A stretch of DNA of 64,000 bases from Comamonadaceae bacterium (GTDB lineage Bacteria > Pseudomonadota > Gammaproteobacteria > Burkholderiales > Burkholderiaceae_C): assembly GCA_947372865.1 (NCBI GenBank), contig CANBVJ010000012.1, forward strand, positions 1 to 64,000. Reading direction: 5' to 3'. Both the position numbers and the translations under genes were made by a program. Numbering within the stretch: the first letter of the stretch is position 1; each line of letters begins with the position of its first letter. This document shows, one piece after another, positions 34,187 to 59,077 of the stretch. The notes below the pieces were generated by a model, which saw only the letters and a program-made list of their open reading frames with translations, ran no database searches and was not told the origin of the DNA.

Positions 34187-37100
34187 ATGAGCAACCTCGC
34201 CCCAGGATCGAACGAATCCATGCAAGACCAAGACGCAGCCCTGACCAAGAAGCAAAAGAAGAATCTCTCAGGGGCTAAAGGCTCGGCAGCTGCCCAGACG
34301 GGCGTGGTTGCGCCGGAGTCGGCGCTTGCAGTCAAAAAGCTACGCCGTAAATTGGTGGCTGACGATAGTGTTCTCGGGGCTGCAGGCGATGACCTGGGCA
34401 GCAGTGGTGCCGTGGTTAGTGATGTAGACGCGAGTGCACTCAACGATGGTGGAACCTGGCAGTTGGCGCAAGCGGAAACTGGTGCGGTGCTGCCCGGTGT
34501 TGGCGGAGCGGCTGGTGGCGCTGGTGGTGCCGCAGCAGCAGGTTCTGGTGGTGCAGCTGCTGCGGCCGCAGGCTCTGGTGGTGCGGCGGCAGCGGGTGCT
34601 GGTGCCGCCGGCGCAGGCGCTGCAATGGGCGCAGGTGCTGCTGCAGCGGGCGCAGGCCTTGGCCTCGGTGGTGTTGCCGCGGCAGCGGCGGGTGGATTGG
34701 CGCTGGCAGGCGGTGGCGGCGGTTCGTCGGCACCGGCCCCCACGCCTCCTGGTGCGCCCTCCATCAGCACCGTAGCTGCTAACGACGTCGTCAACGGCGC
34801 AGAAAACACTGCGGGCGTGACTATTAGCGGCCAAGCTGCAGCAAACTCCACCGTGCGCGTATACGATGGTGTGACGCTAATTGGTACAACCACTGCTGAC
34901 GGCAGTGGCAACTACAGCCTAACTGGCGTGCACTTTGCAACCTCGACAGGCGCCAGCCATAGCCTGACTGCTACTGCCACAAACAGCGTAGGCACTGGCG
35001 CAGCCAGTACTGCGCACACCGTGCAGGTTGACACAGAGTTGCAGGTGCCCACGGCTGCCATTGCGCACACCGTGCTTAATGACACAGGTAGCTCTTCAAG
35101 CGACAGTATCACCGCCAACACCGCGCCGGTCATCAATGGCACTGCAGAAGCTGGCGCGCGCGTGACCGTTGTGGTTGGTGGGGTAAACGGGCAAACCCTG
35201 ACGACTACAGCAGACGGATCGGGTAACTTCAGTGTTACGCCTGTGTCATTGGCCAATGGCACGTATACCGTGGCGATCACTACGAGTGATGCGGCTGGAA
35301 ACACCAACACTGCCTTTGGAACGCCTTTCACCATCGGTTCAGCGCTGAGTGCGCCCACCATCAGTACCGTGGCTGGTAACGACATCGTTAATGGCGCAGA
35401 AAACACCGCAGGCGTGACCATCAGCGGCGTGGCTGATGCAAACTCCACCGTGAAGGTGTACGACGGTGCAACGCTCATCGGCACAACCACTGCGGACAGC
35501 CATGGCAGTTACAGCATCACAGGTGTTCAATTTGCAACATCGGCAGGCGCCAGCCATAGCCTGACTGCGACTTCCACCAACAACGTAGGTACCAGCGCCG
35601 CCAGTGCCGCGCACACCGTGCAGGTTGACACCGTGGCGCCAGGCGCGCCCGCTGCGGCCATTGCGCACACCGCGCTCAACGACACGGGCAGCTCTTCGAG
35701 CGACAGCATCACCTCCAACGCCACGCCAGTCATCACCGGTACTGCCGATGCTGGTACGCAAGTCACAGTGGTGGTGGGTGGGCAAACCCTCACGACTACT
35801 GCAGACGGCTCGGGCAACTTCAGTGTGACCCCCGCAGCATTAGCCAACGGCACCTACACCGTGGCGATCACGACGACCGACGCGGCTGGCAACAGCAGCT
35901 CTGGCACTGGAACCCCTTTCACCATTGGTACAGCGCTGAATGTCCCCACAATCAGCACCGTAGCCGGCAACGACGTCGTTAGCGCCGCAGAAAACACCGC
36001 AGGCGTGACCATCAGCGGCGTGGCGGCTGCAAACTCTACCGTGCGTGTATACGACGGTGCAACGCTCATCGGCACAACCACTGCAGACGGCAGCGGTAAC
36101 TACAGCATCACAGGCGTGCAATTTGCACTCTCGGCAGGCGCCAGCCATAGCCTGACTGCGACTTCCACCAACAACGTAGGCACCAGCGCCGCCAGTGCCG
36201 CGCACACCGTGCAGGTTGACACCGTGGCGCCAGGCGCGCCCGCTGCGGCCATCGCGCACACCGCGCCCAATGACACCGGTAATTCGTCAAGCGACAGCAT
36301 CACAGCCAACACCACGCCAGTCATCACTGGCACTGCCGATGCTGGAACGCAAGTTACTGTTGTGGTTGGTGGTCAAACCCTGACGACCACGACGGACGGC
36401 ACGGGCCACTTCAGCGTGACACCTGCGACACTGGCCATTGGTACATACACCGTGGCGATCACGACGACAGACGCGGCCGGCAACAGCAGCTCTGGCACTG
36501 GAACCCCTTTCACCATCGGTGCGGCGCTGAGCGCTCCCACCATTGGCACCGTAGCTGGTAACGACATCGTTAATGGCGCGGAAAACACCGCAGGCGTGAC
36601 CATCAGCGGCATGGCGGCTGCAAACTCTACCGTGCGTGTATACGACGGTGCAACGCTCATCGGCACAACCACTGCAGACGGCAGCGGTAACTACAGCATC
36701 ACGGACGTGCACTTTGCACTCTCGGCAGGCGCCAGCCATAGCCTGACAGCTACTGCCACCAACAACGTAGGCACCAGCGCTGCCAGCGCAGCGCACGCGG
36801 TGCAAGTTGACACCTTAGCACCAGTTGTGCCCGCTGCGGCCATCGCGCATACCGCGCTTAATGACACGGGTGACTCGTCAAGCGACGACCTCACTTCCAA
36901 CACGGCTCCCGTCATCACCGGAACAGCCGAAATCGGTGCGCAAGTCACCGTTGTGGTTGGTGGACAAACCCTCACGACCACTGCAAACGGCTCGGGTCAC
37001 TTCAGCGTGACGCCTGCACCGTTGGCCAGCGGCACCTATACCGTGGCGATCACTACGACTGATGCGGCAGGCAACAGCAGCTCTGCCGCTGGGGCACCGT

Positions 37101-40100
37101 TCGAAGTTGATCACATCGCGCCGGGCACACCTAGCGCTGCCATTGCGCACACCGTGCTCAACGACACGGGTACATCTGCAACTGACAGCGTCACCCTCAA
37201 CACCACGCCTGACATCACCGGCACCGCCGAAATCGGCGCGCACGTGAATGTTGTGGTGGGCGGGCAAACCCTCACCGCCATCGCTAATGGCTCGGGCATT
37301 TTCACTGTGACGCCATCAGAAATGGCGCCTGGCACCTACACTCCTGTGGTTACCGTGACCGACGCTGCTGGCAACTCCAGCGTCCCGTTCAACGGCACGC
37401 CTTTCACCGTGGAAGCGCTCCCTGCGCCTAGCACCGCGACTCCGCTGGCCACCAACAGCACCCTGGAGCACCCCACGGCAATTATCCATGGCCACGCGGA
37501 TGTTGACTCCTGCGCTGATGGCGGCGTGACCGTGATTTTTGAAGGTACGACCTATTCTCAAAGCGGCCTTGAGCTGATTGTTGACGACAACGGCAATTGG
37601 TACCTGGATGTGGGCGCGCAAGTGCTTGCCGAAGGCATTCAAGATGGCCACTATGACGTGACTGTCCGCGCAACCAACTTGGCTGGTGGAGAGACCACCA
37701 CCACGCTGACCGACGTGCTGTGGTTGGTCAATGGATGCCAGACCTTTAACGCAAACTCCTTGCCCGAAGACAACCATTGGAATATCACTGGTGAGTCCGG
37801 CATGGAAACCCTGGGCGTGGACTTTGGCGTTTACGTGACATCTTTGGGTGGCATCGAGGTGACCGACTTTGTGGTGTCGGATTTCAATCTCGACGCGCAA
37901 AACGTGACGCTGGCCGAATGTGGCATCGACGTGTCCCATGGCAACGCAACGTTCCACTCCAACAACATCACTCTTGACGGCAGCAGCATCTCCGTGTCGG
38001 ATACGGCAGTGCGCCACAGTGAATACAACCAAGTGCTGGACGCTGGCATTACCCTGGCAGCCAATGGTTCCATCGTGATGCTGGGCTATGGCGACACGGG
38101 TGGCGGCATTGCGCCGCAGACCCAGGCGTCCGGCAACGGCGGTCTGGTGACCTTGTCTGAAACAAACACTGGCTTTAATGGTCAGTACGGTGGCGCCGAT
38201 GTGTACGCTGCCGATGCCGGTATTTATTTGACGGCAAGCGACAGTATTTCGATCACAGTTGACGGCCACACCACAGCCGGTGTCACCCTATCGCAAAGCG
38301 ACCTGGGCCAAGGTGAAGACGCGAATGTGTACGTTAACAATGCGCACATTGACCTACTGGCTGGTGGCGGCATCTCCTTGCTGGAGACCTATACCGACGT
38401 GTATGAAAGCGGTACTTACACTCTGGTGGACAACGGAATCTCCCGCACTGCTACCGAATCGAGCACCATCTCTGGTGGTTCGGGACTGGACATCGAGCTC
38501 TTGCAAAACCACCTGAGCGCCTATGACCTGGTGGATGCATCTAACGCTAGCATTTCTTTGGGCGCAGACTGGATTGCCGCAGGCTCGGTCCTGCTTGAAC
38601 AGCAATCATTCCAGGGCTCGGGCGTGGACCTGTCAAATGCCCATGTCGACGTGTTTGGCAATGGTGTGAGCTTGATGGACAGCTTCGTGACGTCGTTCTC
38701 AGAGGCCGACTTGGGCAACTCTTACGAGTCGCACCACAGTTCTTACTGGGATTCGGGTAGCGTGCACATTTTGCAAAGTGCAGTCACCGCCTTCGACGGA
38801 TCAATTGATGCGCACGACGCTCAGATCTCTGTGGGCGCCAACTTTGTTGCGGTGGGTGAGGTTGGCGTTGAGCAATCAGATATGCACGCCTCCCAGGGGA
38901 TTGATTTGTCTGGCGCCCATGCCGTGGTTAATTCCGCGGGTCGGTTTGATATGGGTGCTGTAAGTTTTGAAGACGACTACGCTTACTCCCAAACTTTGGA
39001 CGGTTACCAGGGTGACTTCTACTCCAGCGCGACCGACGTGGTGTTTAGTGCATCAGACGTGTATGTCAATCAGTACGACATCCATGCTGACCACGGCGAC
39101 ATTAATGCCGCGGGTGCCACTGCTTCAAATGGTGCGGACTATGAAGGGTCATTTTTCGTTCCACAACAAGGCAGCGTGGAGGTTTACCAAGAAAGCATCA
39201 CCGCCCTTGACGGCAGTGTGACCATTGCCAACGCTGAAGCCAGTAAATACGCCCATGAAGAGTCGTATTGGTTTGGTGGGTCGAACGACTTTGGTGTGTT
39301 TAACTATTTCAGTGCTGGCTATACATCCGTGCAAGACCACACGGTGTACGACGCTTTCAGTTACCAAGACTATGACCGCACTGCCAGTAACATGTCGGCA
39401 GATGGATCCAATGTTGCTGTGGACCAGCATTACATTCGTGCTGCTAATGGCATTGTTGCCGATGGCGCGTCCGCTGGACTGGGTATTGATCACAACTACG
39501 ATTTCCCCGTGGTGTTTGGCGGTGACGTCTCGGTCAGCCAGACGTATTTCACGGCGCAGGGTCTTGACGGTGGTGGCATCAACCTGAACAACGCCCAAGT
39601 CTGGCTCTCAAGCCAAGACGACTTTGTGCTGTTGCACCATACCGCGACCGCCGATGTGAGCGTGTACGAGTACTACGTGGAAACCGTGGGTGGTTTGAAC
39701 TCAGGCCATCTGAACACCTCTTTGCACGAGTACACCCTGTCCTCCGACACGATCGACTTTGCCAGCGTGCATGTGGACCAGATCCTCATCCACGCCGCTG
39801 CAGGCGACATCAGCGCTGTAAATGCGGCGGTGGACATCAGTGTTGGTGGCTTGTATTCGGGTGACCTGTATATCTCGCAAGACTACATGACGGCGCAAAA
39901 CGGCAGCATCGATGTGCACGGCGCACATGTGGCTGTGTCTGCGGCAGGCGCCATCACCCTAGTCAACTCGGTCGTCTCGTTCTGGGAAAGCGCGCACGAT
40001 TCGTCTTCGACTTTTGGCGGATCGAGCACTTCGTTTAGCACACTCGATTACAGCGACTACAACACGAATGTAGGCTCGATTTACTTGGAGCAAATTGCGT

Positions 40101-43100
40101 TGACGGCCGAAAGCGGTGGCGTGGATCTGTCCAGTGCGACCATTTCCGTGACTGCCGGCGAAGGGATTAGCGCTGACAGCGTCTACGTGACACAGCATGC
40201 TGTGTGGGCCTTCGGCGGAGATGTGGATGCCAGTGGTGCTGCGGTTGACGTTACCGTGGGCGACTACGCCCAAATGGAGCTGAACGGTAATGCTTACGTT
40301 ACGCAGAATCAGATCGTCGCCCTTGGTGGCTCTATCAGCGCAAGCGGCGCGCAGGTAACGCTTGCGGCGGGTAACAACAGCTACATCTCTGCCGACAATG
40401 TGTACGTGGCGCAAACTGGGTTCTATGCAACGTCTGACATTGACATGTGGAATGCACGTGCAGTGGTCAGTGCCGGTGAAGGCGCAAATGTGGATGTGCC
40501 TTACGCAGTGTTTGTGGAGCAGAACTATATCTCGGCGGGTGGCTACCTGGACGCGAGCGGTGCGCAAGTGGGCATCACAGTGGGTAGCGACACGACTAAC
40601 TATGACGCCAGTATCTACACCGATGGCGCCTATGTGTCGCAAGATCACCTGACCGCACACTACGGCATGGACATCGACAACGCCGGTGTTAATGTGGTGG
40701 GTGGCAACGGTGCAACCGTTTACATCGATGGTAGCGCCTACGTATCCCAAACGGATAACTATGCAGGCTACAACAGTGAACTCAATGCCGCCAATGTCCA
40801 TGTGACCGTTGGGGCAGGTGACAATGCTTATGTGTCTGCTACTTCGGCCTTCATCGAGCAGAACAACATGACTGCCGGTTCTGTCGACATCAGTGCTGCC
40901 AGCGTTGAGGTCAGTGTGGGCAGCGATGCTGAGCTCCTATTGAGCGGAAATGCCTCCATTGACCAGAACTGGATCCTCGCCCGCAACGGCGACGTCAGCG
41001 TAACCGGCGCCAATGTCACACTGGCAGCTGGTAACAACAGCCTCGTCTCTGCCGACAACGTGTATATCTCACAAACTGAAATCACGGCGGCTTACGACAT
41101 TGACATGTGGGATGCGCGTGCGGTAGTCAGCGCCGGCGATGGCGCGCATGTGGATGTGCCTTACGCAGTGTTTGTGCAGCAAAACTATATCTCGGCGGGC
41201 GGTTACTTGGATGCGACCGGTGCACAAGTAGGTATCACCGTCGGAAGTGATGACAGCAACAACGCAAGTATTTATACCGATGGCGCCTATGTGTCGCAAA
41301 ACAGCTTGCTGGCCGATGACTGGATGGACATCGACAACGCGGGTGTGAACGTGGTGGGCGGTGATGGTGCATCCATCTATATCGACGGCAGCGCCTACCT
41401 CTCGCAAACGGACAACTATGCGGGCTACAGCAGTGAACTCTATGCTGCCTACGGTCACGTTTCCGTTGCGGCGGGTGACGATTCCTTTGTAAGGGCAAAC
41501 ACTGTCTTTATCGAGCAGAACAACATGGCTGCCGGCTCTGTCGACATCAGTGCTGCCACCGTTGAGGTCAGTGTGGGAGGCAACGCCCAAATTATGCTGA
41601 ACGGAGATGCCTACATTGAGCAGTACAACATCCTCGCCCACAACGGATTTCTTGACGCAAACGGCGCAGCTGTCACACTAGCGGCGGGCAGCGATAGCTA
41701 TATCTCCGCCGGCAACGTGTATGTGTCGCAAACTGAGCTCACTGCGGCTGGAGGCGTCGGCCTTTGGGACGCGCGTGCGGTGGTCAGTGCTGGCGATAGC
41801 GCGTATGTGACTGTGCCTGGCTCGGTATATGTGGCACAGAAATACATCTCGGCAGGCTACGCCATTTGGGCGACTGGTGCGCAAGTTGACATCACTGTGG
41901 GCGACAGCTACACAACTAACTATGACGCCAGCATCTACACCGATGGCGCTTTTGTGTCGCAGTACGAATTTACGGCCGATGGCTGGATTAATATCGCCGG
42001 TGCAGGTGTGAATGTGGTAGGTGGCAATGGCGCAGTCATTGAGATCGATGGCAGTGCCTATGTGTCGCAACAGTACATCTATGCAAACGAATATAACTGG
42101 TCAGATGGTGGTCTGAATGCTGCCGATGCCCATGTGACCGTTGCCGCAGGTAACAATGCGGTGGTTACGGCAAACGAAGTCTTCATCGCGCAGAGCGACA
42201 TGACGGGTCACTGGGTCGACGTCAGCGCAGCCAGCGTTGAAGTCAGCGTGGCTGATAGTGGCCACATCTCGCTTGAGTACGGTGCTTATATTGACCAGCA
42301 CAACATTCTTGCCAGCGACAACACAACCTACTACAGCGGCTTCGTGCATGGCGAGGACGCTAGCATTCGCATAACCGGCGGAAATGATGCAACGATCACG
42401 ATCGACAGCACGATGTATGCCAATAACTACAACGGAACTTATAGTGGCGGGCACGCTAATTGGGCGCCTTATTGGCCAGGGGTCAACAATGCCGCCGGCT
42501 TAGGTGACATATCCGTTTGGACTGACACCCACAACACCTACGATGGTGCAAGCATCTATATTAGCCAAACAGAAATTGCGGCGACTAATGGTATAGATTT
42601 GTCGGGCGCGTCTATTGTGGTGGGTGCCGGTGGTATTGCGCCAAATAGCTCATCCTTGCCAAGCAACCTGGATGTCGTATTGAGCGGAGTCGCGGTGACG
42701 ATTGACCAATCGACTATCTACTCTGACAACCTGAGCGTGGACTTGAGCTCTGCTCACGTAGGCGTACTGGTGGGTGACTACGGAAACATCGATGTCACGC
42801 CGCAAACGACGCAGGACGGAACCGACTACTACCGGTCGTACTCCTATGTGACTGATTTTGGAAATGACGATTGGAACTACAGGTCTTGGACGACCGAAGT
42901 CATCACGAATACCCATGCGGAAAACAACCGAATTGGTATTGCGCAGTTCGACATCCGAGCCGCTGGTGATATTTATGCAAACGATAACATCGTAGAAATC
43001 GCAGCAGGCGACCAGAGTTCGATTTCTCTGGATGCAACGTCCGTGCTGGTGGACCAGTCGGACATGCATGCAACACATGGCAGCATTGAAGCGACCGCCG

Positions 43101-46100
43101 CGAGTGTGATTATTGAGATTGGCCAGTTAAGCGAATTGAATATGACGCCCGAGCGTGACGGCTATTCATATGCAGATATGTATAGAAACTTCTTTTTAGG
43201 GATTGATGTCGGTCACTACCATCACTACTACGACACCTATGTGGAGTACCGCACCTCCTACGAGAATATCTATGGTGATGTGGCTGTGTGGCAAAATGAT
43301 TTGACCGCCGGATCCTCTGTTAATGTGGATGGTGCCAATGTTCGGATTTCAGAAGCTGACTATTCCGACATTAACCTCACTGGTATTTCTGTCGATATCA
43401 ATCAATCGCGACTGATTGCGGAGTCGGGTAATGTGAACGCCCGTGATGCGGTAGTGACGATCAACGCTGGAGACCACTCCGGCGTGACTTTGGTTGCTGC
43501 GTTGGAGCTGAATTTCACCATGGGCTCACATTATTACCATGAGAATTGGAGCGAAGGCGACTACCAATCTGGAACCGGCACCCTGACGAGCTTGTTGAGC
43601 GAGCAAGAGTTCAGCATCAACGTTGGGCAAGACCACCTGACCGCTACCGATGGCGACATCAATGCCACCGGCGCTGCTGTCAATATGAATGTGGGCAATA
43701 GCTCAGATATCTTCCTGCACGGTGCAAATGTTTTCGTTTCACAGTACGATGTTGTTGCCGACGGCGGCAATGTGGACCTGAGCAATGCAGCCGTTGCACT
43801 GACTGGCGGCACCAACAGTCGCATCGAGATTGAGCAAGGCACTGAGACCGCATGGGAGCAGCATGAGTCGGGCTGGTTCCAGAACTGGACCAATCAGAGC
43901 GTCGTTTACCGAAACTCTTATGCAGCTGACGTATATATCGCTCAGTCATTCATCTATGCCCAAGAATCCTTGTCCGGCACTGCCTACGAGGTTACGTCGG
44001 GTGGCGAAGTCAACATGAATGACGTGGCAATTAATCTCTCTGTGGGTGATGCCGACAACTGGAATCAAGGCTGGATTTCTGCCCATAATGTGACCATTGA
44101 ACAGACGTATATCGCTGCAGATGAAAACCTGTATGCGACCGCAGTGAGCGTGAACGTTGAGGCTGGTGTCAATGCGTTTATCGAGATTCACAATGCAGAC
44201 GTTATCCAGGCGCAAATGCATGCTGGCAATGTGTTGACGTCCAAGCTGGTTGGTGATTACTTCGACGGGAACCTGACGGACGGCACGACCAACACGGATC
44301 TTCCTATTGCGTATTGGGGAACCTTGGACTTGTCGGGTGCCGCTGTCAAGCTGTCGGCGGGCGCCAATGTCTATGCGCATGAAGCGATCGTTGCCCAGAA
44401 TAACCTGTGGGCAGGCGAGACGGTTGATTTGTCGTCTGCAACCATCAACGTCACCGGTGATGATTACGTTTCGGTTGACCAAGTGGTAATCGCCCAAAGT
44501 GACGTGACGGCCGGCGGGGTGGTTTATTACTACGATACAACGGGTATTGAAGACTACTCACATTACCAACTTGACCAGTTGCAAACCCTCACGGTGCGCG
44601 ACCCACTTACGTTCGTTCCCACGACCATTACTGGTTTGGTTGATCTGGCGAATGCAAGTATTGACATCAGCGCCGGTTGGAATTACGTAGGCGATGTGGT
44701 AGCTATAGAACGCAATAATATTGTGTCGGGCCAATTAGTTGATGCGCATAACAACCGCATTGATATCACTGCATCGGATATGACCATTGGTGATATTCAT
44801 AACTGGCTTGGTGTGGATGGCTATTACTCAGACGGCAACTACGATAATTTGGTTGACGGTGTCACTGCTGCAACGTTTGACTTCAGTAATAACGTGATTG
44901 CATTGGCGGCGTGGAATGGCGATATTGATGTCAGTAACTATGTTGAACAGTACCGTTTCGTGACAGCCTCTGTCATCAATGCCGACGACAACTATGTTGG
45001 GCTGACGGCGTCGGGCAGTATCTACGTTGGATCGTCGGTGGGTATTGGTAACGAGGTCGTTGCTTCCATCTACGAGGAGCCCGTTGTAGTCAACATGAGC
45101 GGTAATGCTGTTGACATTATTGCTGGCGGCAATGTGAATGTGTCCGATGTTTATATTGGCGTTTCAAGCGATAACAACAGTACGCTGGATCTGACCATGA
45201 ACGACAACAGCATCTACATCTCCGCGGACAATGTGTATGGCGGTAGTATTTGCAACGTGGAGGTCGATGCCCTGTTGACAGACGGCAGCTCGGTGAATCA
45301 CAACTCCCTGCAGGTGACTGCCAATGAGAATTGGGGAAGTATCGACTTCACCAGCGTTCACTTGTCGGGTACTGATGCCTACGCCAAATTGTGGGGTAAC
45401 GATATCTCTGTCGGATCTATGACTGCACAGAATATGGATGAAAGTCACATCACCGTTGGTGCGGAGTATTTGACGCTCTTCGCTGATTCGGCGATGACCA
45501 TCGATTTGATTGATCTGTCTAGCCAGGACGTTGCCGGTTACTCTTTGCCATCTAAGGATTACTGGTGGCAGTCCGATGCCACGATTGGCTCGAACTCGAC
45601 GCTCAACATAACGCAGCTCAAACTCGATGGTGCGCAAGCTTTCCTGGAGTTTGACGTGAGTACTGTCTCAACCATCCACTACGACATTACGGTCGATCAG
45701 TTGGGTATTGGCCAGAACAACGGCGATTTGAGTTATTTGGGTCATTCTGGAAGTGCGGTTTCTGAATTCGGCATTAACAACATGACGCACGATTGGTCGC
45801 AACAGTACGATCTGATTGATTTGAGTGATTTGGGTATCACCAGCGCCGATCAGCTGAACTGGAGCGTGACCTTGGGTAGTGGGTTTGCGGCGGGGGTAGT
45901 GGAGAATATTCACTTCTCGCTGAACTCGACTTCCGGAACAAACCTGGCCGCAGGCAGTACCGTAGAGTTTGATCTGCAAAACGTGCGACTCGACAGCAGC
46001 GCGCGTCATGACTATTCCGCGCAGTCCGGTCAGGGTGCGGTTGGACAAGTGGATAGCACTGATGTCTGGTATGCCTTCTGGAACTACTCGCTGCACCTGC

Positions 46101-46114
46101 AGGGACCCGTCTAA
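34187..46114 (+). CDS. Giant (3975 aa) repetitive, probably T1SS-exported surface protein: Gly/Ala-rich segment, tandem Ig-like domains, long predicted beta-solenoid
   Basis: Single uninterrupted ORF; internal DNA- and protein-level repeats; T1SS genes immediately downstream. Confidence 0.92.
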   Translation: MSNLAPGSNESMQDQDAALTKKQKKNLSGAKGSAAAQTGVVAPESALAVKKLRRKLVADDSVLGAAGDDLGSSGAVVSDVDASALNDGGTWQLAQAETGAVLPGVGGAAGGAGGAAAAGSGGAAAAAAGSGGAAAAGAGAAGAGAAMGAGAAAAGAGLGLGGVAAAAAGGLALAGGGGGSSAPAPTPPGAPSISTVAANDVVNGAENTAGVTISGQAAANSTVRVYDGVTLIGTTTADGSGNYSLTGVHFATSTGASHSLTATATNSVGTGAASTAHTVQVDTELQVPTAAIAHTVLNDTGSSSSDSITANTAPVINGTAEAGARVTVVVGGVNGQTLTTTADGSGNFSVTPVSLANGTYTVAITTSDAAGNTNTAFGTPFTIGSALSAPTISTVAGNDIVNGAENTAGVTISGVADANSTVKVYDGATLIGTTTADSHGSYSITGVQFATSAGASHSLTATSTNNVGTSAASAAHTVQVDTVAPGAPAAAIAHTALNDTGSSSSDSITSNATPVITGTADAGTQVTVVVGGQTLTTTADGSGNFSVTPAALANGTYTVAITTTDAAGNSSSGTGTPFTIGTALNVPTISTVAGNDVVSAAENTAGVTISGVAAANSTVRVYDGATLIGTTTADGSGNYSITGVQFALSAGASHSLTATSTNNVGTSAASAAHTVQVDTVAPGAPAAAIAHTAPNDTGNSSSDSITANTTPVITGTADAGTQVTVVVGGQTLTTTTDGTGHFSVTPATLAIGTYTVAITTTDAAGNSSSGTGTPFTIGAALSAPTIGTVAGNDIVNGAENTAGVTISGMAAANSTVRVYDGATLIGTTTADGSGNYSITDVHFALSAGASHSLTATATNNVGTSAASAAHAVQVDTLAPVVPAAAIAHTALNDTGDSSSDDLTSNTAPVITGTAEIGAQVTVVVGGQTLTTTANGSGHFSVTPAPLASGTYTVAITTTDAAGNSSSAAGAPFEVDHIAPGTPSAAIAHTVLNDTGTSATDSVTLNTTPDITGTAEIGAHVNVVVGGQTLTAIANGSGIFTVTPSEMAPGTYTPVVTVTDAAGNSSVPFNGTPFTVEALPAPSTATPLATNSTLEHPTAIIHGHADVDSCADGGVTVIFEGTTYSQSGLELIVDDNGNWYLDVGAQVLAEGIQDGHYDVTVRATNLAGGETTTTLTDVLWLVNGCQTFNANSLPEDNHWNITGESGMETLGVDFGVYVTSLGGIEVTDFVVSDFNLDAQNVTLAECGIDVSHGNATFHSNNITLDGSSISVSDTAVRHSEYNQVLDAGITLAANGSIVMLGYGDTGGGIAPQTQASGNGGLVTLSETNTGFNGQYGGADVYAADAGIYLTASDSISITVDGHTTAGVTLSQSDLGQGEDANVYVNNAHIDLLAGGGISLLETYTDVYESGTYTLVDNGISRTATESSTISGGSGLDIELLQNHLSAYDLVDASNASISLGADWIAAGSVLLEQQSFQGSGVDLSNAHVDVFGNGVSLMDSFVTSFSEADLGNSYESHHSSYWDSGSVHILQSAVTAFDGSIDAHDAQISVGANFVAVGEVGVEQSDMHASQGIDLSGAHAVVNSAGRFDMGAVSFEDDYAYSQTLDGYQGDFYSSATDVVFSASDVYVNQYDIHADHGDINAAGATASNGADYEGSFFVPQQGSVEVYQESITALDGSVTIANAEASKYAHEESYWFGGSNDFGVFNYFSAGYTSVQDHTVYDAFSYQDYDRTASNMSADGSNVAVDQHYIRAANGIVADGASAGLGIDHNYDFPVVFGGDVSVSQTYFTAQGLDGGGINLNNAQVWLSSQDDFVLLHHTATADVSVYEYYVETVGGLNSGHLNTSLHEYTLSSDTIDFASVHVDQILIHAAAGDISAVNAAVDISVGGLYSGDLYISQDYMTAQNGSIDVHGAHVAVSAAGAITLVNSVVSFWESAHDSSSTFGGSSTSFSTLDYSDYNTNVGSIYLEQIALTAESGGVDLSSATISVTAGEGISADSVYVTQHAVWAFGGDVDASGAAVDVTVGDYAQMELNGNAYVTQNQIVALGGSISASGAQVTLAAGNNSYISADNVYVAQTGFYATSDIDMWNARAVVSAGEGANVDVPYAVFVEQNYISAGGYLDASGAQVGITVGSDTTNYDASIYTDGAYVSQDHLTAHYGMDIDNAGVNVVGGNGATVYIDGSAYVSQTDNYAGYNSELNAANVHVTVGAGDNAYVSATSAFIEQNNMTAGSVDISAASVEVSVGSDAELLLSGNASIDQNWILARNGDVSVTGANVTLAAGNNSLVSADNVYISQTEITAAYDIDMWDARAVVSAGDGAHVDVPYAVFVQQNYISAGGYLDATGAQVGITVGSDDSNNASIYTDGAYVSQNSLLADDWMDIDNAGVNVVGGDGASIYIDGSAYLSQTDNYAGYSSELYAAYGHVSVAAGDDSFVRANTVFIEQNNMAAGSVDISAATVEVSVGGNAQIMLNGDAYIEQYNILAHNGFLDANGAAVTLAAGSDSYISAGNVYVSQTELTAAGGVGLWDARAVVSAGDSAYVTVPGSVYVAQKYISAGYAIWATGAQVDITVGDSYTTNYDASIYTDGAFVSQYEFTADGWINIAGAGVNVVGGNGAVIEIDGSAYVSQQYIYANEYNWSDGGLNAADAHVTVAAGNNAVVTANEVFIAQSDMTGHWVDVSAASVEVSVADSGHISLEYGAYIDQHNILASDNTTYYSGFVHGEDASIRITGGNDATITIDSTMYANNYNGTYSGGHANWAPYWPGVNNAAGLGDISVWTDTHNTYDGASIYISQTEIAATNGIDLSGASIVVGAGGIAPNSSSLPSNLDVVLSGVAVTIDQSTIYSDNLSVDLSSAHVGVLVGDYGNIDVTPQTTQDGTDYYRSYSYVTDFGNDDWNYRSWTTEVITNTHAENNRIGIAQFDIRAAGDIYANDNIVEIAAGDQSSISLDATSVLVDQSDMHATHGSIEATAASVIIEIGQLSELNMTPERDGYSYADMYRNFFLGIDVGHYHHYYDTYVEYRTSYENIYGDVAVWQNDLTAGSSVNVDGANVRISEADYSDINLTGISVDINQSRLIAESGNVNARDAVVTINAGDHSGVTLVAALELNFTMGSHYYHENWSEGDYQSGTGTLTSLLSEQEFSINVGQDHLTATDGDINATGAAVNMNVGNSSDIFLHGANVFVSQYDVVADGGNVDLSNAAVALTGGTNSRIEIEQGTETAWEQHESGWFQNWTNQSVVYRNSYAADVYIAQSFIYAQESLSGTAYEVTSGGEVNMNDVAINLSVGDADNWNQGWISAHNVTIEQTYIAADENLYATAVSVNVEAGVNAFIEIHNADVIQAQMHAGNVLTSKLVGDYFDGNLTDGTTNTDLPIAYWGTLDLSGAAVKLSAGANVYAHEAIVAQNNLWAGETVDLSSATINVTGDDYVSVDQVVIAQSDVTAGGVVYYYDTTGIEDYSHYQLDQLQTLTVRDPLTFVPTTITGLVDLANASIDISAGWNYVGDVVAIERNNIVSGQLVDAHNNRIDITASDMTIGDIHNWLGVDGYYSDGNYDNLVDGVTAATFDFSNNVIALAAWNGDIDVSNYVEQYRFVTASVINADDNYVGLTASGSIYVGSSVGIGNEVVASIYEEPVVVNMSGNAVDIIAGGNVNVSDVYIGVSSDNNSTLDLTMNDNSIYISADNVYGGSICNVEVDALLTDGSSVNHNSLQVTANENWGSIDFTSVHLSGTDAYAKLWGNDISVGSMTAQNMDESHITVGAEYLTLFADSAMTIDLIDLSSQDVAGYSLPSKDYWWQSDATIGSNSTLNITQLKLDGAQAFLEFDVSTVSTIHYDITVDQLGIGQNNGDLSYLGHSGSAVSEFGINNMTHDWSQQYDLIDLSDLGITSADQLNWSVTLGSGFAAGVVENIHFSLNSTSGTNLAAGSTVEFDLQNVRLDSSARHDYSAQSGQGAVGQVDSTDVWYAFWNYSLHLQGPV
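34481..34735 (+). repeat. Low-complexity Gly/Ala-rich coding segment
   Basis: GAVLPGVGGAAGGAGGAAAAGSGGAAAAAAGSGG...GGVAAAAAGGLALAGGGGGSS. Confidence 0.9.
34764..37100 (+). repeat. Four tandem ~591-597 bp coding repeats (paired Ig-like domains)
   Basis: Start phrase (TCAGCACCGTAGCTG.TAACGAC or variant) at 34764, 35361, 35952, 36543; spacings 597, 591, 591 bp. Confidence 0.93.
40290..42320 (+). repeat. About three tandem ~660 bp higher-order coding repeats within the solenoid region
   Basis: Equivalent phrases (e.g. CTACATCTCTGCCGACAATGTGTA) at 40381, 41041, 41698; spacings 660 and 657 bp. Confidence 0.88.
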
Positions 46115-46122
46115 GGACACTG

Positions 46123-47142
46123 ATGCAGATATTGGTATCCTTACTCGGGGCGCAGGGTGACGCGGTAGCCCGCGCCACGGCATTGGGCAAGTTGCTGACG
46201 GCGCGGGGTCACAGCCTGACGTTTTTGGGGGATTTCCCCGAAAACGCCTTGCAAGAGATTGCGGCGCTGCCGGCCCAGGCGCTCAAGCAGGTGTCGGACC
46301 AAAAGTTTGACGCATTGCTGGTGGCTGCCTTGGGTGGGCCAGAGCGACTGGCTGCCATTGCCCGGAAACTACCGACGCTGGTCTGGGTGCAAGAGAGCTT
46401 TTTGGACCTGATGGCGCTCAAGGGCGACTTTGTCCATTGGGTTACTTTGTTTCGCCACGCCAAGCGCATTGTGTTTCTGACCGAACGGCAAAAGGACAAG
46501 ACCTTTGCGTCGTTTACTTCGGGCTTGGATGACAAGATTGCGGTGATGGCCTGTGGTGCTCCAGCCGACATTGGCAAGCTGCGCGTGCCATCGGAAAAAG
46601 AGCACTTTGGCGTGGTGATGCACGCTCCAGTGCTGCCGCACAAGCGTCAGCAAGACCTGATTGCCGCAGGCGAGCGCCTGCGTGACTTCAACCTGAGCTT
46701 CACCTTTATCGGTGAAATGCAAGGTATGGGAGGCATGCCCGAGGGCATGCGCAAGATTGTGGAGCGCCAGCCGGAGCGCTATAACTTTGTTGGCTACCAG
46801 ACCGGTGCGCAAACGCGTGCGTTGCTGGCCAAGAACGATTTGTACGTGCACACTTCCTCCGACGAAGCGTGGCCGCAGTCGGTGATAGACGCTGCAGCTA
46901 TGGGCTTGCCTCTGATGCTCAGCGAGATTGAGGCCTTTTCCAAGGTGTGGGTGCACGGGGTGAACTGTTTGAAATTCCCCACCAACAACCCGGACTTTCT
47001 CGCCTCGAGCCTGCGTATGATTCTGCAGGACGATGTGCTGCGCCACAATCTCTCGGTGCAGTCGGGCAACACGGCGAAGCGTTTTTCTGGCGAACGTTTT
47101 TATGGTGCTCTGGTGCAAATGGTTGAAGGTCTGGCGCCGTGA
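46123..47142 (+). CDS. GT4-like (GT-B) glycosyltransferase
   Basis: VVMHAPVLPHKRQQDLI..., VHTSSDEAWPQSVIDAAAMGLPLMLSEIEAF; begins 8 nt after the giant gene. Confidence 0.8.
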   Translation: MQILVSLLGAQGDAVARATALGKLLTARGHSLTFLGDFPENALQEIAALPAQALKQVSDQKFDALLVAALGGPERLAAIARKLPTLVWVQESFLDLMALKGDFVHWVTLFRHAKRIVFLTERQKDKTFASFTSGLDDKIAVMACGAPADIGKLRVPSEKEHFGVVMHAPVLPHKRQQDLIAAGERLRDFNLSFTFIGEMQGMGGMPEGMRKIVERQPERYNFVGYQTGAQTRALLAKNDLYVHTSSDEAWPQSVIDAAAMGLPLMLSEIEAFSKVWVHGVNCLKFPTNNPDFLASSLRMILQDDVLRHNLSVQSGNTAKRFSGERFYGALVQMVEGLAP

Positions 47143-48413
47143 AGCTGCGCAGCCCCATGCTGGGCTTGCTGTTGTCGGCGCTGGTCGGGACCGTTTGGGC
47201 AGAAGGTCAGGAGCTTTCGTTTACCGAGGTGCTACGCCTGGCTTTGGCCAATAGCCCGTCGGTACAGGCCAAGGCACGGGAGCTGGACGCGGCTGACAGC
47301 ACGCTCAAGGGCGCGCAGTGGGGCCGCTACCCGGCGTTCTCGGCGTCTCTGGCCACCGCGCCCGCCGCCGTGGACAGTAATCTGGCGCCCAGCCAGTCGG
47401 CACCATCGTCGTACTTGCGGGTGGACCAGCCGCTATACGCCTGGGGCGGCATCGATGCACGCATCAAGACCGCGGACCTGCAAAAAAACGCGGCCAAGCT
47501 GGCGATAGACAGTGAACGCAACAGTGTGGCCGACCGTGTGATTGGTGCCTACGGCCAGATCGTGGCCGCGCAAGAAAAAATTGGCGTGCAGCAAGATGCG
47601 GTCTCGCGCTTGGTGGAGTTTGAGGGCATCATCGGCCGACGCTTGGCCACGCAATTGAGCTCGAAAAATGACGCTTCCTTGGTGAACTCGCGCTTGCAGC
47701 AGGCACGCTCTGAGCTGGTGCAAAGCCATGCCACCGTGACGCGTGCACGCGCGCAGCTAGAAGAGATTATTGGCCAGTCGCTCAAAGGCAAGATGCAGGC
47801 TACGCCCGCTGCCGTGGACTGGGCCAATCTGGACGCACTGCAGCTGAGTTGTCTAGACAGTGCCAGTGAGTTGGCCTCCGCGCGCGTGGGTCGCGACCTC
47901 GCCGAAAACCAGATCAAGCAGCGCAGCGCCGACTTGTTCCCCCGTCTGGTGGGACGTGTGGAGCGCATTCACGCACCCTCGGTAGGATTGGGAAGCAGTG
48001 ACTACACCCAGGCCTATGTGGTGCTGGAAGCGAGTTTAGGCAATGGGCTTTCGGCGCTTGAGGGTGTGAACGAGAGCTCAGCGCGCTTGCAGGCCAGTGA
48101 ACAGCAAATCGAATTAACGCGCCGGGCCCTGATGCAACAGACGGCCAGCGCTTGGAGCGACCTCCAGTCCTATGCGGACCAGGAGAGCATACTCAAAGAA
48201 ATAACGTCAGAGAATCAGGAAATCGTGGAATCATTTATCAGGCAATACCTCGCAGGTAAGAAAAGTTGGCTTGACGTGTTGAACGTTGAGCGGGAGCTGG
48301 TGCAAAGCCGCCTTCAAATGGCCGACATTCGTTCAACGCTGATGACGGTCGCGCTGCGGCTGCAGCGTCTGGGCGGGCATTTGAATCTCGCGGTAGGATC
48401 CACAGCTCCATGA
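47139..48413 (+). CDS. TolC-family outer membrane efflux/secretion protein
   Basis: Signal peptide; LSFTEVLRLALANSPSVQAKARELDAADSTLKGAQWGRYPAFSASL; GTG start overlapping the previous stop. Confidence 0.88.
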   Translation: MKLRSPMLGLLLSALVGTVWAEGQELSFTEVLRLALANSPSVQAKARELDAADSTLKGAQWGRYPAFSASLATAPAAVDSNLAPSQSAPSSYLRVDQPLYAWGGIDARIKTADLQKNAAKLAIDSERNSVADRVIGAYGQIVAAQEKIGVQQDAVSRLVEFEGIIGRRLATQLSSKNDASLVNSRLQQARSELVQSHATVTRARAQLEEIIGQSLKGKMQATPAAVDWANLDALQLSCLDSASELASARVGRDLAENQIKQRSADLFPRLVGRVERIHAPSVGLGSSDYTQAYVVLEASLGNGLSALEGVNESSARLQASEQQIELTRRALMQQTASAWSDLQSYADQESILKEITSENQEIVESFIRQYLAGKKSWLDVLNVERELVQSRLQMADIRSTLMTVALRLQRLGGHLNLAVGSTAP

Positions 48414-50605
48414 TCGATGCCATCGCCCAAGACACACTCCCATTAACTCCACAGCCCGCACCGAATCACGGTGACGAGTTGCTGGCAGCGCTGCTCTCAC
48501 GCCTTGCCGCGCTGCAGGGGCATGCGGTAGGTCGGGTCACCATGCTGATGACCCAAACCGGTCTGCAGGGTGCCGACATTGCCGACATGGGCCGCGCCGA
48601 GCAGGCCTTGGAGATTTGGTCGGCGGTGTTTCCGTCCGGCCAGGCTCGCCGAATAGACCAGTTGCCCGAGCCGCATGACATGCCGCTGCTATGGCTTGAT
48701 GTCACAGGCGAACAGGCCCTGATTCTGACCGGGCAGCTCAGCATGGGCAGCTACCAAGCGCTTACGTCCGACGGTGCCAAAGCAACCGTCACGATGGAGC
48801 AAATGCTGTCAGGCCATGTGCTGAACCTGCGTTGCGATGTGCAGAACCTGCAAGAAGACAGCGACCGCCCGGTGACCGCGCGGGATTGGTTCAAATACGC
48901 CCTTTTCAAGCGCAAGAAGACCTTTTTCGAGGCATCCATTGCCACCGCCTTCATCAACGTCTTGGCCTTGGTGAGTTCGCTGTACTCGATGAATATTTAC
49001 GACCGGGTAGTGCCTTCCAAGACCTCGTCGACCCTGTGGGTGCTGAGCGTGGGCGTGGTGCTGGCCTATGTTTTTGACCATGTGCTCAAGCATGTGCGCG
49101 CCAAATACGTGGAGCAGGCCTGCCGCGAGATCGACAACGAGCTTTCAGGTGTGTTCTTCGACAAAATGCTTAGCATCCGCATGGATGCTCGACCGGCCGC
49201 GGTGGGCACCTTTGCCTCGCAGTTACGCCAGTTTGAGACGGTGCGTAATGTGCTTACGGCCACCACCATGTTTGTGCTGGTGGATGCGCCGTTTTCTTTG
49301 GTGTTTATTGGCGTCATCGCCCTGATTGCCGGCCCCATTGCGCTCATCCCATTGATGCTGCTGCCGCTGACCATGGGTATTGCGTTCTTGTCGAAGGGCC
49401 GCTTTGAACGTTTGGCGCGCGAAAAGGTGGGTGAGACCAATCAGCGCAACGGCCTGTTGGTTGAGGTGATCTCGGGTATCGAATCGGTCAAGGCCGCGCA
49501 GGGCGGTTGGAAGTTTGCCCGCCGCTGGAGCCAGCTCAACGAGTCGCTGGCGACCAACGACCTCACGACCCGACTGCACTCGCAGTCACTGATGAACTCG
49601 GTGCAGATGATTCAGCAGTTGCTGTATGTCGCGATCATGGTGGCGGGTGTCTATGCCATTCATGACGGGCAAATGACCACAGGTTCATTGATCGCCTGCA
49701 CCATTATTGGTTCGCGCGCCTTGGCTCCGGCGGCCGGATTGGCCGGCATTGTTGCGCAGTGGCAGGGTGCCAAAGCCGCGCTGGCAGTGCTGGAAAGAAT
49801 CATGGTGCTGCCTTCTGACACGCGGGCGGACCAGAGGCCCATCATTCCGGAGTCTTGCACCGGAAACCTGACGCTCGAAGGCATTCGCTACCAATATGGT
49901 GAAGGCATTCCCGCAAGTTTGCAGCTCGACGGCGTGCAGTACAAGCCCGGCGAGCGCGTGGTGGTGATGGGCGCTTCGGGTTCGGGCAAGTCGACCATGC
50001 TCAAAGTCGCCTCGGGCCTGTATGCGCCCACCCAGGGCAAGGTGCAGCTCGATGGCCTAGACATGGCACAGCTCGCGCCAGGTTATCTGCGTGAGCACAT
50101 TGGCTACCTGCCGCAGGATGTGTGGCTGTTTGAAGGCACACTGCGCGACAACATCATCATGGGTTTGCACTCGCCGAGCGATGCCCAAATTCTGCGGGCT
50201 GCAGAATTGACCGGCCTGATTGCGGTCATTCGCGCACATCCGCAAGGTCTGGCTTTGCCTATCTCCGAGGGCGGACGTGGACTGTCGGTGGGGCAAAGGC
50301 AGTTGGTGGGGCTGACTCGCCTGCTGATTGCGCAGCCTAAAGTCATGTTGCTGGATGAACCCACGGCAGCGCTGGACAACCGGCTTGAACAGTACGTGAT
50401 CCAGCAGCTGGTGACCCACATTGCGCCCGACTCGGTACTGGTATTGGTGACGCACAAGGCGGAGTTGATGCGCTTTGCCACCCGTGTGCAAATTATTGAC
50501 GGTGGCAAGGTGGTGCTTGATGGGCCACGTGACCTGGTCGTTGAAAAGCTGAAAAACCGCTTGAACGCGAACGCCGGCGCCCCCCCTGCAGTGACGCAGG
50601 CTTAA
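48410..50605 (+). CDS. Type I secretion system ABC permease/ATPase (LssB/LapB-like)
   Basis: N-terminal C39-like domain without obvious catalytic Cys; TM domain SLYSMNIYDRVVPSKTSSTLWVLSVGV; GASGSGKSTMLK, LSVGQRQLVGLTRLLI, MLLDEPTAALD. Confidence 0.9.
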   Translation: MIDAIAQDTLPLTPQPAPNHGDELLAALLSRLAALQGHAVGRVTMLMTQTGLQGADIADMGRAEQALEIWSAVFPSGQARRIDQLPEPHDMPLLWLDVTGEQALILTGQLSMGSYQALTSDGAKATVTMEQMLSGHVLNLRCDVQNLQEDSDRPVTARDWFKYALFKRKKTFFEASIATAFINVLALVSSLYSMNIYDRVVPSKTSSTLWVLSVGVVLAYVFDHVLKHVRAKYVEQACREIDNELSGVFFDKMLSIRMDARPAAVGTFASQLRQFETVRNVLTATTMFVLVDAPFSLVFIGVIALIAGPIALIPLMLLPLTMGIAFLSKGRFERLAREKVGETNQRNGLLVEVISGIESVKAAQGGWKFARRWSQLNESLATNDLTTRLHSQSLMNSVQMIQQLLYVAIMVAGVYAIHDGQMTTGSLIACTIIGSRALAPAAGLAGIVAQWQGAKAALAVLERIMVLPSDTRADQRPIIPESCTGNLTLEGIRYQYGEGIPASLQLDGVQYKPGERVVVMGASGSGKSTMLKVASGLYAPTQGKVQLDGLDMAQLAPGYLREHIGYLPQDVWLFEGTLRDNIIMGLHSPSDAQILRAAELTGLIAVIRAHPQGLALPISEGGRGLSVGQRQLVGLTRLLIAQPKVMLLDEPTAALDNRLEQYVIQQLVTHIAPDSVLVLVTHKAELMRFATRVQIIDGGKVVLDGPRDLVVEKLKNRLNANAGAPPAVTQA

Positions 50606-50630
50606 AGCACGCCCACCGAGGAGTATTTCC

Positions 50631-51797
50631 GTGAACCCCAACCGTCCATCCAAAGCAGCGCCCGGCGGGCGCTGGGCCCTATGGGCCATTATGGCCAGCC
50701 TAGTCGTATTTTTCACCTGGGCATATTACAGCGAGCTTGAGCAGGTTACCCGGGCACCTGGCCAGGTGATCGCGAGTTCGCGTACCCAAATCATCCAGTC
50801 TTTGGACGGTGGCGTGATCGAGAGCGTTGCCGTGAAAGAAGGCGCCACCGTGCGTGCCAACCAGGTGCTGCTGAAGTTCAGTGCCGCGCGGGCTGATTCA
50901 GCCTGGCGCGAAACCCGCGCCCGTGCGGCGGCGCTGGCCGCCGCAGTAGCGCGCCTGCGTACGGAGGTGTTTGACGAACCCATGGTGTTTAACGATTTGG
51001 TCAAGGCCCATCCCGGCTTTGCGGAAAACCAAAAAGAACTGTACAAAAAACGCAAGCGTGCGATTGACGACGAGTTGGCGGCTTACAAAAAGGCCTTGGC
51101 GCTGGCGCAGGAAGAATTGCAAGCAACAGAACCTTTGCTCAAAAATGGCGATGTCGGCCTGGCCGATGTGCTGCGACTGCGCCGCCAGGTGATGGACCTT
51201 GAAGGCCAAATCGCCAACCGCAAGAACAAGTATTTCCAAGACGCGCAGACCGAGTTGGCTAAGGCGCAGGAAGAGTTGGCGTCAGTATCGCAAGCCATGG
51301 AGCAACGCAAAATACAGCTCGACAACACCGTGGTTCTGGCACCGCGTGCCGGTATTGTCAAAAATATCCGCTTTACTACCTTGGGCGCAGTGGTGAAGTC
51401 GGGCGACGATATCTTAGAGCTGGTGCCCGCAGACAGTGATTTGGTGGTGGAAGCCAAGGTAAAGCCCGCCGACATTGGCTTTATTCACATGGGTTTGCCT
51501 GCCACGCTCAAGGTCGATGCCTATGACTACTCGGTTTTTGGAGCGCTGCAAGGTAAAGTGATTTACATCAGCGCGGACACCATGAAGGAAGACACGCGCG
51601 GTTTGCAGGATCAGACTTATTACTTGGTGCGGGTCAAAGCCGATGCCGCCCATCTGCTGGGACGCAATGGCGAAGAGATGGCCGTCACGCCCGGCATGAC
51701 CGCTACGGTAGAAGTCTTGACCGGCAAAAAAACCATCCTGAACTACCTGCTCAAGCCGATCGTAAAAACCTTGCACGAGTCGATGAGCGAGCGCTAG
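50631..51797 (+). CDS. HlyD-family type I secretion periplasmic adaptor
   Basis: GTG start; single TM, long coiled coil, VLAPRAGIVKNIRFTTLGAVVKSGDDILELVP. Confidence 0.9.
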   Translation: MNPNRPSKAAPGGRWALWAIMASLVVFFTWAYYSELEQVTRAPGQVIASSRTQIIQSLDGGVIESVAVKEGATVRANQVLLKFSAARADSAWRETRARAAALAAAVARLRTEVFDEPMVFNDLVKAHPGFAENQKELYKKRKRAIDDELAAYKKALALAQEELQATEPLLKNGDVGLADVLRLRRQVMDLEGQIANRKNKYFQDAQTELAKAQEELASVSQAMEQRKIQLDNTVVLAPRAGIVKNIRFTTLGAVVKSGDDILELVPADSDLVVEAKVKPADIGFIHMGLPATLKVDAYDYSVFGALQGKVIYISADTMKEDTRGLQDQTYYLVRVKADAAHLLGRNGEEMAVTPGMTATVEVLTGKKTILNYLLKPIVKTLHESMSER

Positions 51798-51801
51798 GGC
51801 G

Positions 51802-52986
51802 GTGATTCACTTCATTCAACATGGCTTGCGCGACTGCCACAGCCATTTTTATGGGGAAACTCTTGGATTCTTACAGGCGGCGCGCGAACTGAACGTTGGC
51901 TTGCAAGTGTGGACGCATGCCAAATGTGAGCCGGAAATTCTTGCGGCCTGCAATGCCAAAGCGGTATTCCCGCTACAGACCGATGGAGTGCTGGATCTCG
52001 ACCCAGTGAGTGCCGAGTTGTCCAGCTATATCGTGGGTGCTACAGCCTTCGCTGGTATCCTGAGCAAATACCTGACGACCGATATTTCGGCCGTTGATTG
52101 GGTTTTCGTGGCTTATGCCTCGCAAAACGAAGCCTATGCGCTTGCGTTATGGCTACAGACCTTGCCAAGCGGGAAAAGGCCGCAGGTTGCTCTTTTTTGC
52201 CACCGCCCCGAGCTGAAATGGAATATTGGCCCACAGCGTGAAAAGATGTCGGCAAATGCTTCATTTTGGCGTTTTGCCGCCTTGATTTTTGAAAAAATCG
52301 GCATCAAAGACCGTGTACATGTGTTCGCGCCCGATGCTCGGCTGGCAAACGTCTTGGCAATGGCGTCTGGGCTTCAGGTGCAAACCACCGGAATCGCCAC
52401 CCCGTACTTTTTGACGCCCGAACAGGTGTTGGAAGTCCCCAAAAAATTCGATATTGGCTTGATCGGCGAGTTTCGTTCCGAGCGCGGCAGTGATCTGGTT
52501 CCGGATTTGATGGTCGAATTGGACCAGCAACGACCTGGCATGCGTTATGTGTTGCAGCTTAGAACCGCAAACGAGACGGGAAAAGTTCGGCGGCGATTGG
52601 CCGATAAGGGTTTTGCGGGCGAGTTACTCCTTGTCCCGAGCACGATGCTGGAGCCGGCCGAATTTGCCCGGCTTATTCCACAAATGCGTCTGATGGTCTT
52701 GCCGTATTTTCCTGATCGCTACCGTATGCGCAGCTCGGGAGTATTGTCCGAGTGCATTGCTTACGCAACGCCCTGCGTAGTTCCGGTCGATACCTGGCTC
52801 GGTGACCAAGTGCAAAGCGGCGCTGCCGCAGGTGTGGTGTTTGCCGAATGGACAAGCCAGGCGATTTGCGCTGCCACCCTGAACGCTTTGGACCAGTTGA
52901 ACGCCTTGTCCGACTCCGCCAAAGAAAAAATGCAGCCCTGGCGGCAACAAAACTGCGCGCGGGCGATGCTTGAGCGTCTCGTTTAA
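51802..52986 (+). CDS. GT-B fold glycosyltransferase-like protein
   Basis: GEFRSERGSDLVPDLMVEL..., VLPYFPDRYRMRSSGVLSECIAYATPCVVP; GTG start, follows the HlyD gene by 4 nt. Confidence 0.65.
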   Translation: MIHFIQHGLRDCHSHFYGETLGFLQAARELNVGLQVWTHAKCEPEILAACNAKAVFPLQTDGVLDLDPVSAELSSYIVGATAFAGILSKYLTTDISAVDWVFVAYASQNEAYALALWLQTLPSGKRPQVALFCHRPELKWNIGPQREKMSANASFWRFAALIFEKIGIKDRVHVFAPDARLANVLAMASGLQVQTTGIATPYFLTPEQVLEVPKKFDIGLIGEFRSERGSDLVPDLMVELDQQRPGMRYVLQLRTANETGKVRRRLADKGFAGELLLVPSTMLEPAEFARLIPQMRLMVLPYFPDRYRMRSSGVLSECIAYATPCVVPVDTWLGDQVQSGAAAGVVFAEWTSQAICAATLNALDQLNALSDSAKEKMQPWRQQNCARAMLERLV

Positions 52987-53041: not shown

Positions 53042-53338
53042 TTATTTGGCTACGCAGAGAAATCCGCCGGCGGCAAATGACTCGCCTTGTTCATTCATAG
53101 CACGGCTGTGGTAGCCGCCAGACTTGGCCGTACTTTTGTCTCCGCCACAGGCAGCGACACCGGCAGCCAATTTGTCGGCGGGCACGGGCCCAAACGCAGT
53201 GGGACGGTCCCAGGCCACTACGCCCGACGCGTCTTTGACCAGGCGTGGAGGAGTTTTGTCTTCGCTGGCGCCCGGGCCGGTGGAGGCGCAAGCGGCCAAA
53301 AATGCCAGAGAAGCCAAAGCCAGAAATTGCAAACGCAT
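53042..53338 (-). CDS. Small lipoprotein, unknown function
   Basis: 98 aa; signal peptide with lipobox LAAC (FLALASLAFLAAC). Confidence 0.7.
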   Translation of the reverse strand: MRLQFLALASLAFLAACASTGPGASEDKTPPRLVKDASGVVAWDRPTAFGPVPADKLAAGVAACGGDKSTAKSGGYHSRAMNEQGESFAAGGFLCVAK

Positions 53339-53456
53339 GGGATGTGTCCTTTAAATGGTTGTTACTAAAATCACAGATTGAAACTGCAAAAAATTTGACA
53401 TGCATATTATAAAGTGCTGCAGTGTAAAATTGTTGTCGTCGAATTTAGTATTGATT

Positions 53457-54428: not shown

Positions 54429-54441
54429 TGGAGTTATTTGA

Positions 54442-59039: not shown

Positions 59040-59077
59040 GTTCCATCCAAGGCAAGGTACATGCGAGCCGGCAAATT

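Follow-up and report, generated by a model that had tools for sequence, protein, structure and literature searches.

Why should a gene for a protein of 3975 amino acids (aa) be packed together with type I secretion system (T1SS) genes and glycosyltransferase (GT) genes? The locus that raises this question lies in a 64,000-nucleotide stretch (the window; contig C12) from a 3.0 Mb, 95.6% complete Comamonadaceae assembly, and the host is a freshwater-type bacterium. The reading that we favour, with a probability of roughly 0.6, is that the locus makes one giant glycoprotein adhesin, which would be glycosylated in the cytoplasm by three GTs and then exported by a dedicated T1SS.

Gene content and layout of the locus

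Six genes lie in a row on the + strand: the gene of the giant protein, which is presumed to be exported (34187-46114); GT1, a GT4-type glycosyltransferase of 339 aa (46123-47142; Glycos_transf_1, 1e-13); a TolC-type outer membrane factor of 424 aa (47139-48413; OEP 2e-36, type_I_sec_TolC TIGR01844 2e-41); an LssB-type T1SS ABC transporter of 731 aa (48410-50605; TIGR03375 type_I_sec_LssB 3e-204, where 680.5 bits is below the cut-off of 693.1); a HlyD-type periplasmic adaptor of 388 aa (50631-51797; TIGR01843 type_I_hlyD, 316.8 bits, above cut-off); and GT2, a 394-aa probable glycosyltransferase to which a GT-B fold is assigned from a predicted model only (51802-52986). The names GT1 and GT2 are labels for genes of this locus and not CAZy families. 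A seventh gene (TPR-GT9, 651 aa, 32115-34070, - strand), encoding a candidate protein O-glycosyltransferase, is divergent from the giant gene across a gap of 116 nt.

The junctions from the giant gene through GT1, TolC, ABC and HlyD to GT2 are an 8-nt gap, two 4-nt overlaps, a 25-nt gap and a 4-nt gap. The six open reading frames, their order, common strand and coordinates are exactly those of the first-pass annotation, with 25 nt as the largest gap. Terminator-like and promoter-like matches in the region were no more frequent than in shuffled sequence, so the layout is compatible with one transcription unit, which it fits but does not prove. The ABC transporter, HlyD adaptor and TolC factor are contiguous and have the gene content of a type I secretion system. 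Because the giant gene is closely packed with a complete T1SS, this system would be expected to export the adjacent giant protein.

Other genes of the window were recorded. Type II secretion genes lie at 13697-21600 (- strand; GspD, N, L, K and a pseudopilin-type N_methyl protein), where the G+C content reaches 0.70; it falls to 0.50 in the solenoid-coding part of the giant gene. Downstream of GT2, 53400-62830 encodes a TctC receptor, two facing AMP-binding enzymes, a family-2 GT, a methyltransferase, a RimK-like ATP-grasp enzyme and a TupA-like ATP-grasp enzyme; these genes may form a locus of their own for a glycan or for amide modification. Between GT2 and TctC is a 98-aa open reading frame with a lipoprotein-like start (53042-53338, - strand), to which the intergenic sequence of a second genome (G075, below) is similar by eye.

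Architecture of the giant protein

The N-terminal ~190 aa (34187-34756, +) consist of a Lys-rich start, conserved in the alignment with G075, and an Ala/Gly-rich stretch, and may form a retention or anchoring segment. They are followed by Ig-like, Ca2+-stabilised adhesin repeats with 29% Ser+Thr (34754-37546, +; Big_13 7e-95, Big_6 2e-50, Ca_tandemer 5e-87). In NCBIfam/Pfam profile searches Ca_tandemer matched the protein in 10 stretches, and the tandem Ca_tandemer and Big_13 repeats place it with the Ca2+-stabilised Ig-repeat adhesins. Repeats had been noticed before, in what was called a giant repeat protein, but the larger part of the chain had been overlooked: a beta-solenoid rod in which a ~36-aa unit with a VxVxQ core recurs about 50 times (38282-45736, +; 50 anchors counted).

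An AlphaFold model of residues 2221-2660 (440 residues) is a beta-solenoid with pLDDT 95.2 and pTM 0.93; its input was a three-row alignment, two rows of which were overlapping stretches of the window protein itself. The top VIA-align matches of the model were Vag8 and the secretion domains of EtpA and HMW1 (Z 19.1-19.8), with AlgE4 at 16.6; for the HMW1 and EtpA domains, Z was 19.1-19.4 and rmsd 3.5-3.7 over 270-271 aligned residues. Judged by the model, the solenoid is an HMW1/EtpA-like beta-helix, with its right-handedness taken from the matches and not read off the model. A Foldseek search gave no match at E <= 0.001, and the beta-helix matches come from VIA-align alone. Arithmetic on assumed spacings (0.48 nm for each of ~138 coils, a coil being 18 residues, with some ten Ig domains added) suggests a rod of ~100 nm.

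The conserved C-terminal ~475 aa (44687-46111, +; alignment with G075) have no RTX repeats and presumably hold the T1SS signal. In the whole protein there was no HemolysinCabind match and one isolated GGxGxD-like match. The number of NxS/T sequons (75, against 53 in shuffled sequence) is suggestive only. A 3.6-kb piece of the giant gene had no DNA match among plasmid sequences. The protein probably works in adhesion.

LapA, BapA and SiiE are giant Ig-repeat proteins with dedicated LssB-type T1SS genes, and the window locus resembles them, as they are commonly described, in both respects; it differs in that its protein is mostly solenoid and lacks an RTX block, in that GT genes are interleaved with the exporter genes, and in that no LapG was found. 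It is very unlikely, in our estimate, that the giant protein is a Lap-type adhesin with an N-terminal retention module and release by the LapG protease, free of glycosylation. The LssB type of the transporter, the Ala/Gly-rich N-terminus and the likeness of the Ig repeats to those of other BapA/Bap-type proteins speak for such an adhesin, but it would lack the RTX block, and three GT genes would be left unexplained. Moreover, LapG (PF06035) had no match in the genome, while the positive control in Caulobacter was matched; the absence of LapG first noticed in the window thus extends to the 95.6%-complete assembly, and LapG regulation is unlikely. LapD (PF16448) also had no match in the genome, but neither had any control. 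Neighbours resembling lapD or lapG were expected beside LssB-like T1SS relatives, and none was seen among the products scanned.

Three candidate glycosyltransferases

Two GTs had been recognised in the first-pass annotation, and both were found again (the fold of GT2 from its model); the gene at 32115-34070 had been missed. The candidate glycosylation set of the locus would therefore comprise three enzymes (TPR-GT9, GT1 and GT2) and not two. In the TPR-GT9 product the Pfam TPRs are clear, and the C-terminal Glyco_transf_9 match (E 1.4e-4, 21.7 bits) is just below the cut-off of 22; the same family scores far above cut-off in TPR-GT homologues (8.8e-18 in L057, 1e-13 in L033). A PDB sequence search with the C-terminal domain gave no match.

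The GT2 product matched no Pfam or NCBIfam family, a PDB sequence search returned a single non-significant row, and plasmid sequences gave two weak partial matches. Its AlphaFold model, built from a two-sequence alignment, is of medium confidence (pLDDT 61.5). The best PDB matches were GT4/GT1 enzymes and UDP-GlcNAc 2-epimerases, from which the fold is likely GT-B and the protein a probable glycosyltransferase. The closeness of the two enzyme kinds raises the possibility, unlikely in our judgement, that GT2 is a UDP-GlcNAc 2-epimerase-like sugar-nucleotide enzyme that supplies a donor rather than transferring a sugar. Non-hydrolysing UDP-GlcNAc 2-epimerases were indeed the top VIA-align rows (Z 17.0; the best GT4 row reached 15.5), a difference that is not decisive at a pLDDT of 61.5; Foldseek placed glycosyltransferases first (best E 6e-10) with epimerases close behind. 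Against an epimerase are also the lack of a Pfam epimerase match and the fusion of a GT2 homologue to GT9 domains in the distant genome G695, described below.

Conservation in a second genome

Of 198 relatives searched, two (the source genome and G075, a metagenome-assembled genome, MAG) contained the central portion of the giant protein, and the same two had strong GT2 matches; three more had weak partial ones. G075 carries a cluster of the six genes in the same order, and on a separate short contig its TPR-GT gene is divergent from the giant N-terminus, as in the window; we infer that the two contigs join into one locus. This bears out the co-occurrence and gene order proposed earlier: the one further genome in which the giant protein was detected has kept every gene. 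No other genome has a strong match to either the giant protein or GT2, and this one has both, which argues for a giant glycoprotein adhesin.

The giant proteins are 59% identical over the C-terminal 2782 columns and 55% over 422 at the N-terminus. Amino-acid identity is 89% for GT1, 86% for TolC, 95% for ABC, 93% for HlyD, 69% for GT2 and 86% (over 474 aa) for TPR-GT; two downstream genes are 75-79% identical. By these identities the exporter, GT1 and TPR-GT are more conserved than their downstream neighbours, and the giant protein and GT2 less. The dN/dS values between the two genomes were 0.04-0.21 for the six clustered genes, and every computed value was below 0.25. The retention of all genes at 59-95% identity and these dN/dS values argue that the locus did not arise by chance, and gene content and conservation together support the earlier view that this is a self-contained T1SS locus, dedicated to a giant surface protein and interleaved with two GT-B genes. 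In addition, window positions 46154-52728 are identical to a 6575-bp contig of a Comamonadaceae MAG.

Synteny with G075 continues through the downstream genes to 62827 (70-78% identity), so the GTs might serve another glycan. On the main rival explanation, the T1SS exports the giant adhesin, and the GT genes are mere neighbours that make an envelope polysaccharide. This is rather unlikely, although it deserves the most serious hearing among the alternatives. The family-2 GT, methyltransferase and two ATP-grasp enzymes encoded in the syntenic 53400-62830 region favour it, but in both genomes GT1 and GT2 form part of the T1SS gene set, spaced from their neighbours or overlapping them by a few nucleotides.

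Related arrangements in other genomes

The GT2 profile matched 14 of 398 genomes of the phylum, own genome included. Seven of the 13 other neighbourhoods were examined, and a T1SS adaptor gene was present in one, that of G695, a distant proteobacterium; the six without an adaptor favour an envelope polysaccharide. In G695 a 2093-aa protein joins a full-length GT2 homologue (E 7e-46) to three TPR-GT9 units, with HlyD encoded before it and a GT1 homologue (27% identity) and a GDP-mannose dehydratase after it. This fusion beside HlyD and a GT1 homologue speaks against the polysaccharide explanation and for the glycoprotein adhesin, against which weighs the fact that this single case is on a contig that begins at HlyD, has no cargo or ABC gene and belongs to a bin with 8% contamination. 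Among 48 genomes of its order, GT2 homologues are present in 7 and the very long frame in G695 only.

TPR-GT homologues were found in 69 of 103 same-genus genomes and in 131 of 275 genomes of the order, mostly away from T1SS genes, which again favours the polysaccharide explanation. A TPR-GT and a T1SS HlyD lay no more than 20 kb apart in 13 of the 69 same-genus genomes (~1.14 expected) and in 1 of 91 in the order sample outside the genus (0.63 expected). The latter count led us to reject such linkage as a general rule of the order, and the lack of enrichment outside the genus weighs against the glycoprotein adhesin. The linkage is a feature of some loci and not a rule of TPR-GT genes.

Among the first 12 regions around same-genus TPR-GT genes, three had T1SS genes of another lineage beside the TPR-GT. 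In 16 further same-genus regions, T1SS and TPR-GT were found together in five of the seven not chosen for an LssB-like HlyD, and a GT1, GT2 or TPR-GT homologue was alongside in none of the nine T1SS loci that were so chosen, a result that weighs against our preferred reading. In total, 11 further same-genus genomes have a different, only distantly related T1SS lineage with TPR-GT genes adjoining. This second lineage argues for the glycoprotein adhesin; it also tempers the earlier view of the arrangement as unusual, in that the locus is real but GT-bearing T1SS loci occur in these genomes too, with a different T1SS and with TPR-GT genes. The 11 loci are probably one inherited ancestral locus (a judgement based on the tree for seven members and, for the other four, on where they lie and how long their HlyD is), so the independent cases are few, which again weighs against the glycoprotein adhesin: about three in the genus (the window locus, the 11-genome locus and G092) and G695. 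The TPR-GT label has to change 4 times on the HlyD tree; well-supported branches force at least 3 of these changes, subject to a long-branch warning, and the changes count in favour.

Further features of these loci were noted. The cargo of the other T1SS lineage in G007 is a 4779-aa protein with an RTX C-terminus, and FkbM methyltransferases are near. Loci L033, L039, L043 and L109-L112 of that lineage have ABC-HlyD-TolC genes, with a ~1460-aa multi-unit TPR-GT in several. In G094 and G004, a TPR-sulfotransferase (864/868 aa, Sulfotransfer_3; L101:6371-8962, L102:3154-5757) is divergent from an LssB-type T1SS and is perhaps another cargo-modifying enzyme. In G259, a 2696-aa open reading frame with no Pfam match (L017:2186-10273) is divergent from a TolC-ABC-HlyD set.

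Proposed mechanism and comparison with known systems

In the mechanism that we propose, the 3975-aa polypeptide would be kept unfolded in the cytoplasm, where the TPR-GT9 enzyme would bind it through its TPR domain and start glycans, for which Ser/Thr residues in the Ig repeats are the most plausible sites; these glycans would then be extended or diversified by GT1 and GT2. The dedicated LssB-type ABC/HlyD/TolC channel would then export the protein in one step, and outside the cell the solenoid and the Ca2+-stabilised Ig repeats would fold into the ~100 nm rod. Glycosylation itself, its linkage and the order of the enzymes are proposed from gene content.

HMW1C is reported to glycosylate HMW1, beside which it is encoded, in the cytoplasm, and EtpC to modify EtpA likewise (PMC3983070). 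As described there, the HMW1A-HMW1B-HMW1C and EtpB-EtpA-EtpC sets resemble the window locus in that the gene of a large beta-helical adhesin has next to it an export gene of its own and one for a cytoplasmic glycosyltransferase dedicated to it, and the match of the solenoid to these adhesins is a reason for the glycoprotein reading. The export parts differ, being type I (ABC/HlyD/TolC) in the window, whereas HMW1 and EtpA use Sec and TpsB; no TpsB pore gene was seen among the gene products scanned beside the giant gene. Where HMW1 and EtpA have one GT41, the window has three candidate GTs, and these linked enzymes match GT4, GT9-like and unassigned GT-B types instead of an HMW1C-type GT41. The Ig repeats are additional in the window protein. 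We read the logic as HMW1/EtpA-like and the route as T1SS.

FlmG, in the published description, binds flagellins through its TPR domain and is the enzyme that glycosylates them (PMC7591256), which favours our reading by showing that a TPR domain is able to capture a glycosylation substrate. The likeness to the window enzyme is in the N-terminal TPR and C-terminal GT domains, FlmG acting on protein; the window C-terminal domain is instead GT9-like and its presumed substrate a T1SS cargo. SwmA and oscillin, T1SS-type proteins, are reported to be glycosylated (PMC3034196), a further point in favour; they are described as RTX proteins of cyanobacteria, unlike the window protein.

In open full-text literature, judged by title and abstract opening, no description was found of TPR glycosyltransferases dedicated to a T1SS adhesin locus, nor of a locus in which a T1SS and three linked GT enzymes accompany an HMW1-like solenoid. 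The parts of the locus are of known kinds and their combination is apparently new.

A bolder proposal is possible but somewhat doubtful: that the T1SS cargo is pre-decorated by a three-enzyme cytoplasmic line (started by TPR-GT9, extended by GT1 and GT2), that the glycans keep the solenoid unfolded or safe from proteases until export, and that TPR-guided modifying enzymes have been recruited repeatedly to T1SS cargo. The last part draws on the GT9 types in the window, the 11 other genomes and G695, and on the TPR-sulfotransferase by the T1SS of G004 and G094.

Implications

An HMW1-like solenoid is found here beside a different export machine. If our preferred reading holds, the type I secretion route would, for giant adhesins, be tied to protein glycosylation in the cytoplasm, just as the two-partner route is for HMW1 and EtpA. 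The locus would then be a compact system for asking whether a chain that is heavily glycosylated can go through a T1SS and how TPR domains choose their protein, and it would give a clue to the role of the many uncharacterised TPR-GT9 proteins of the order.
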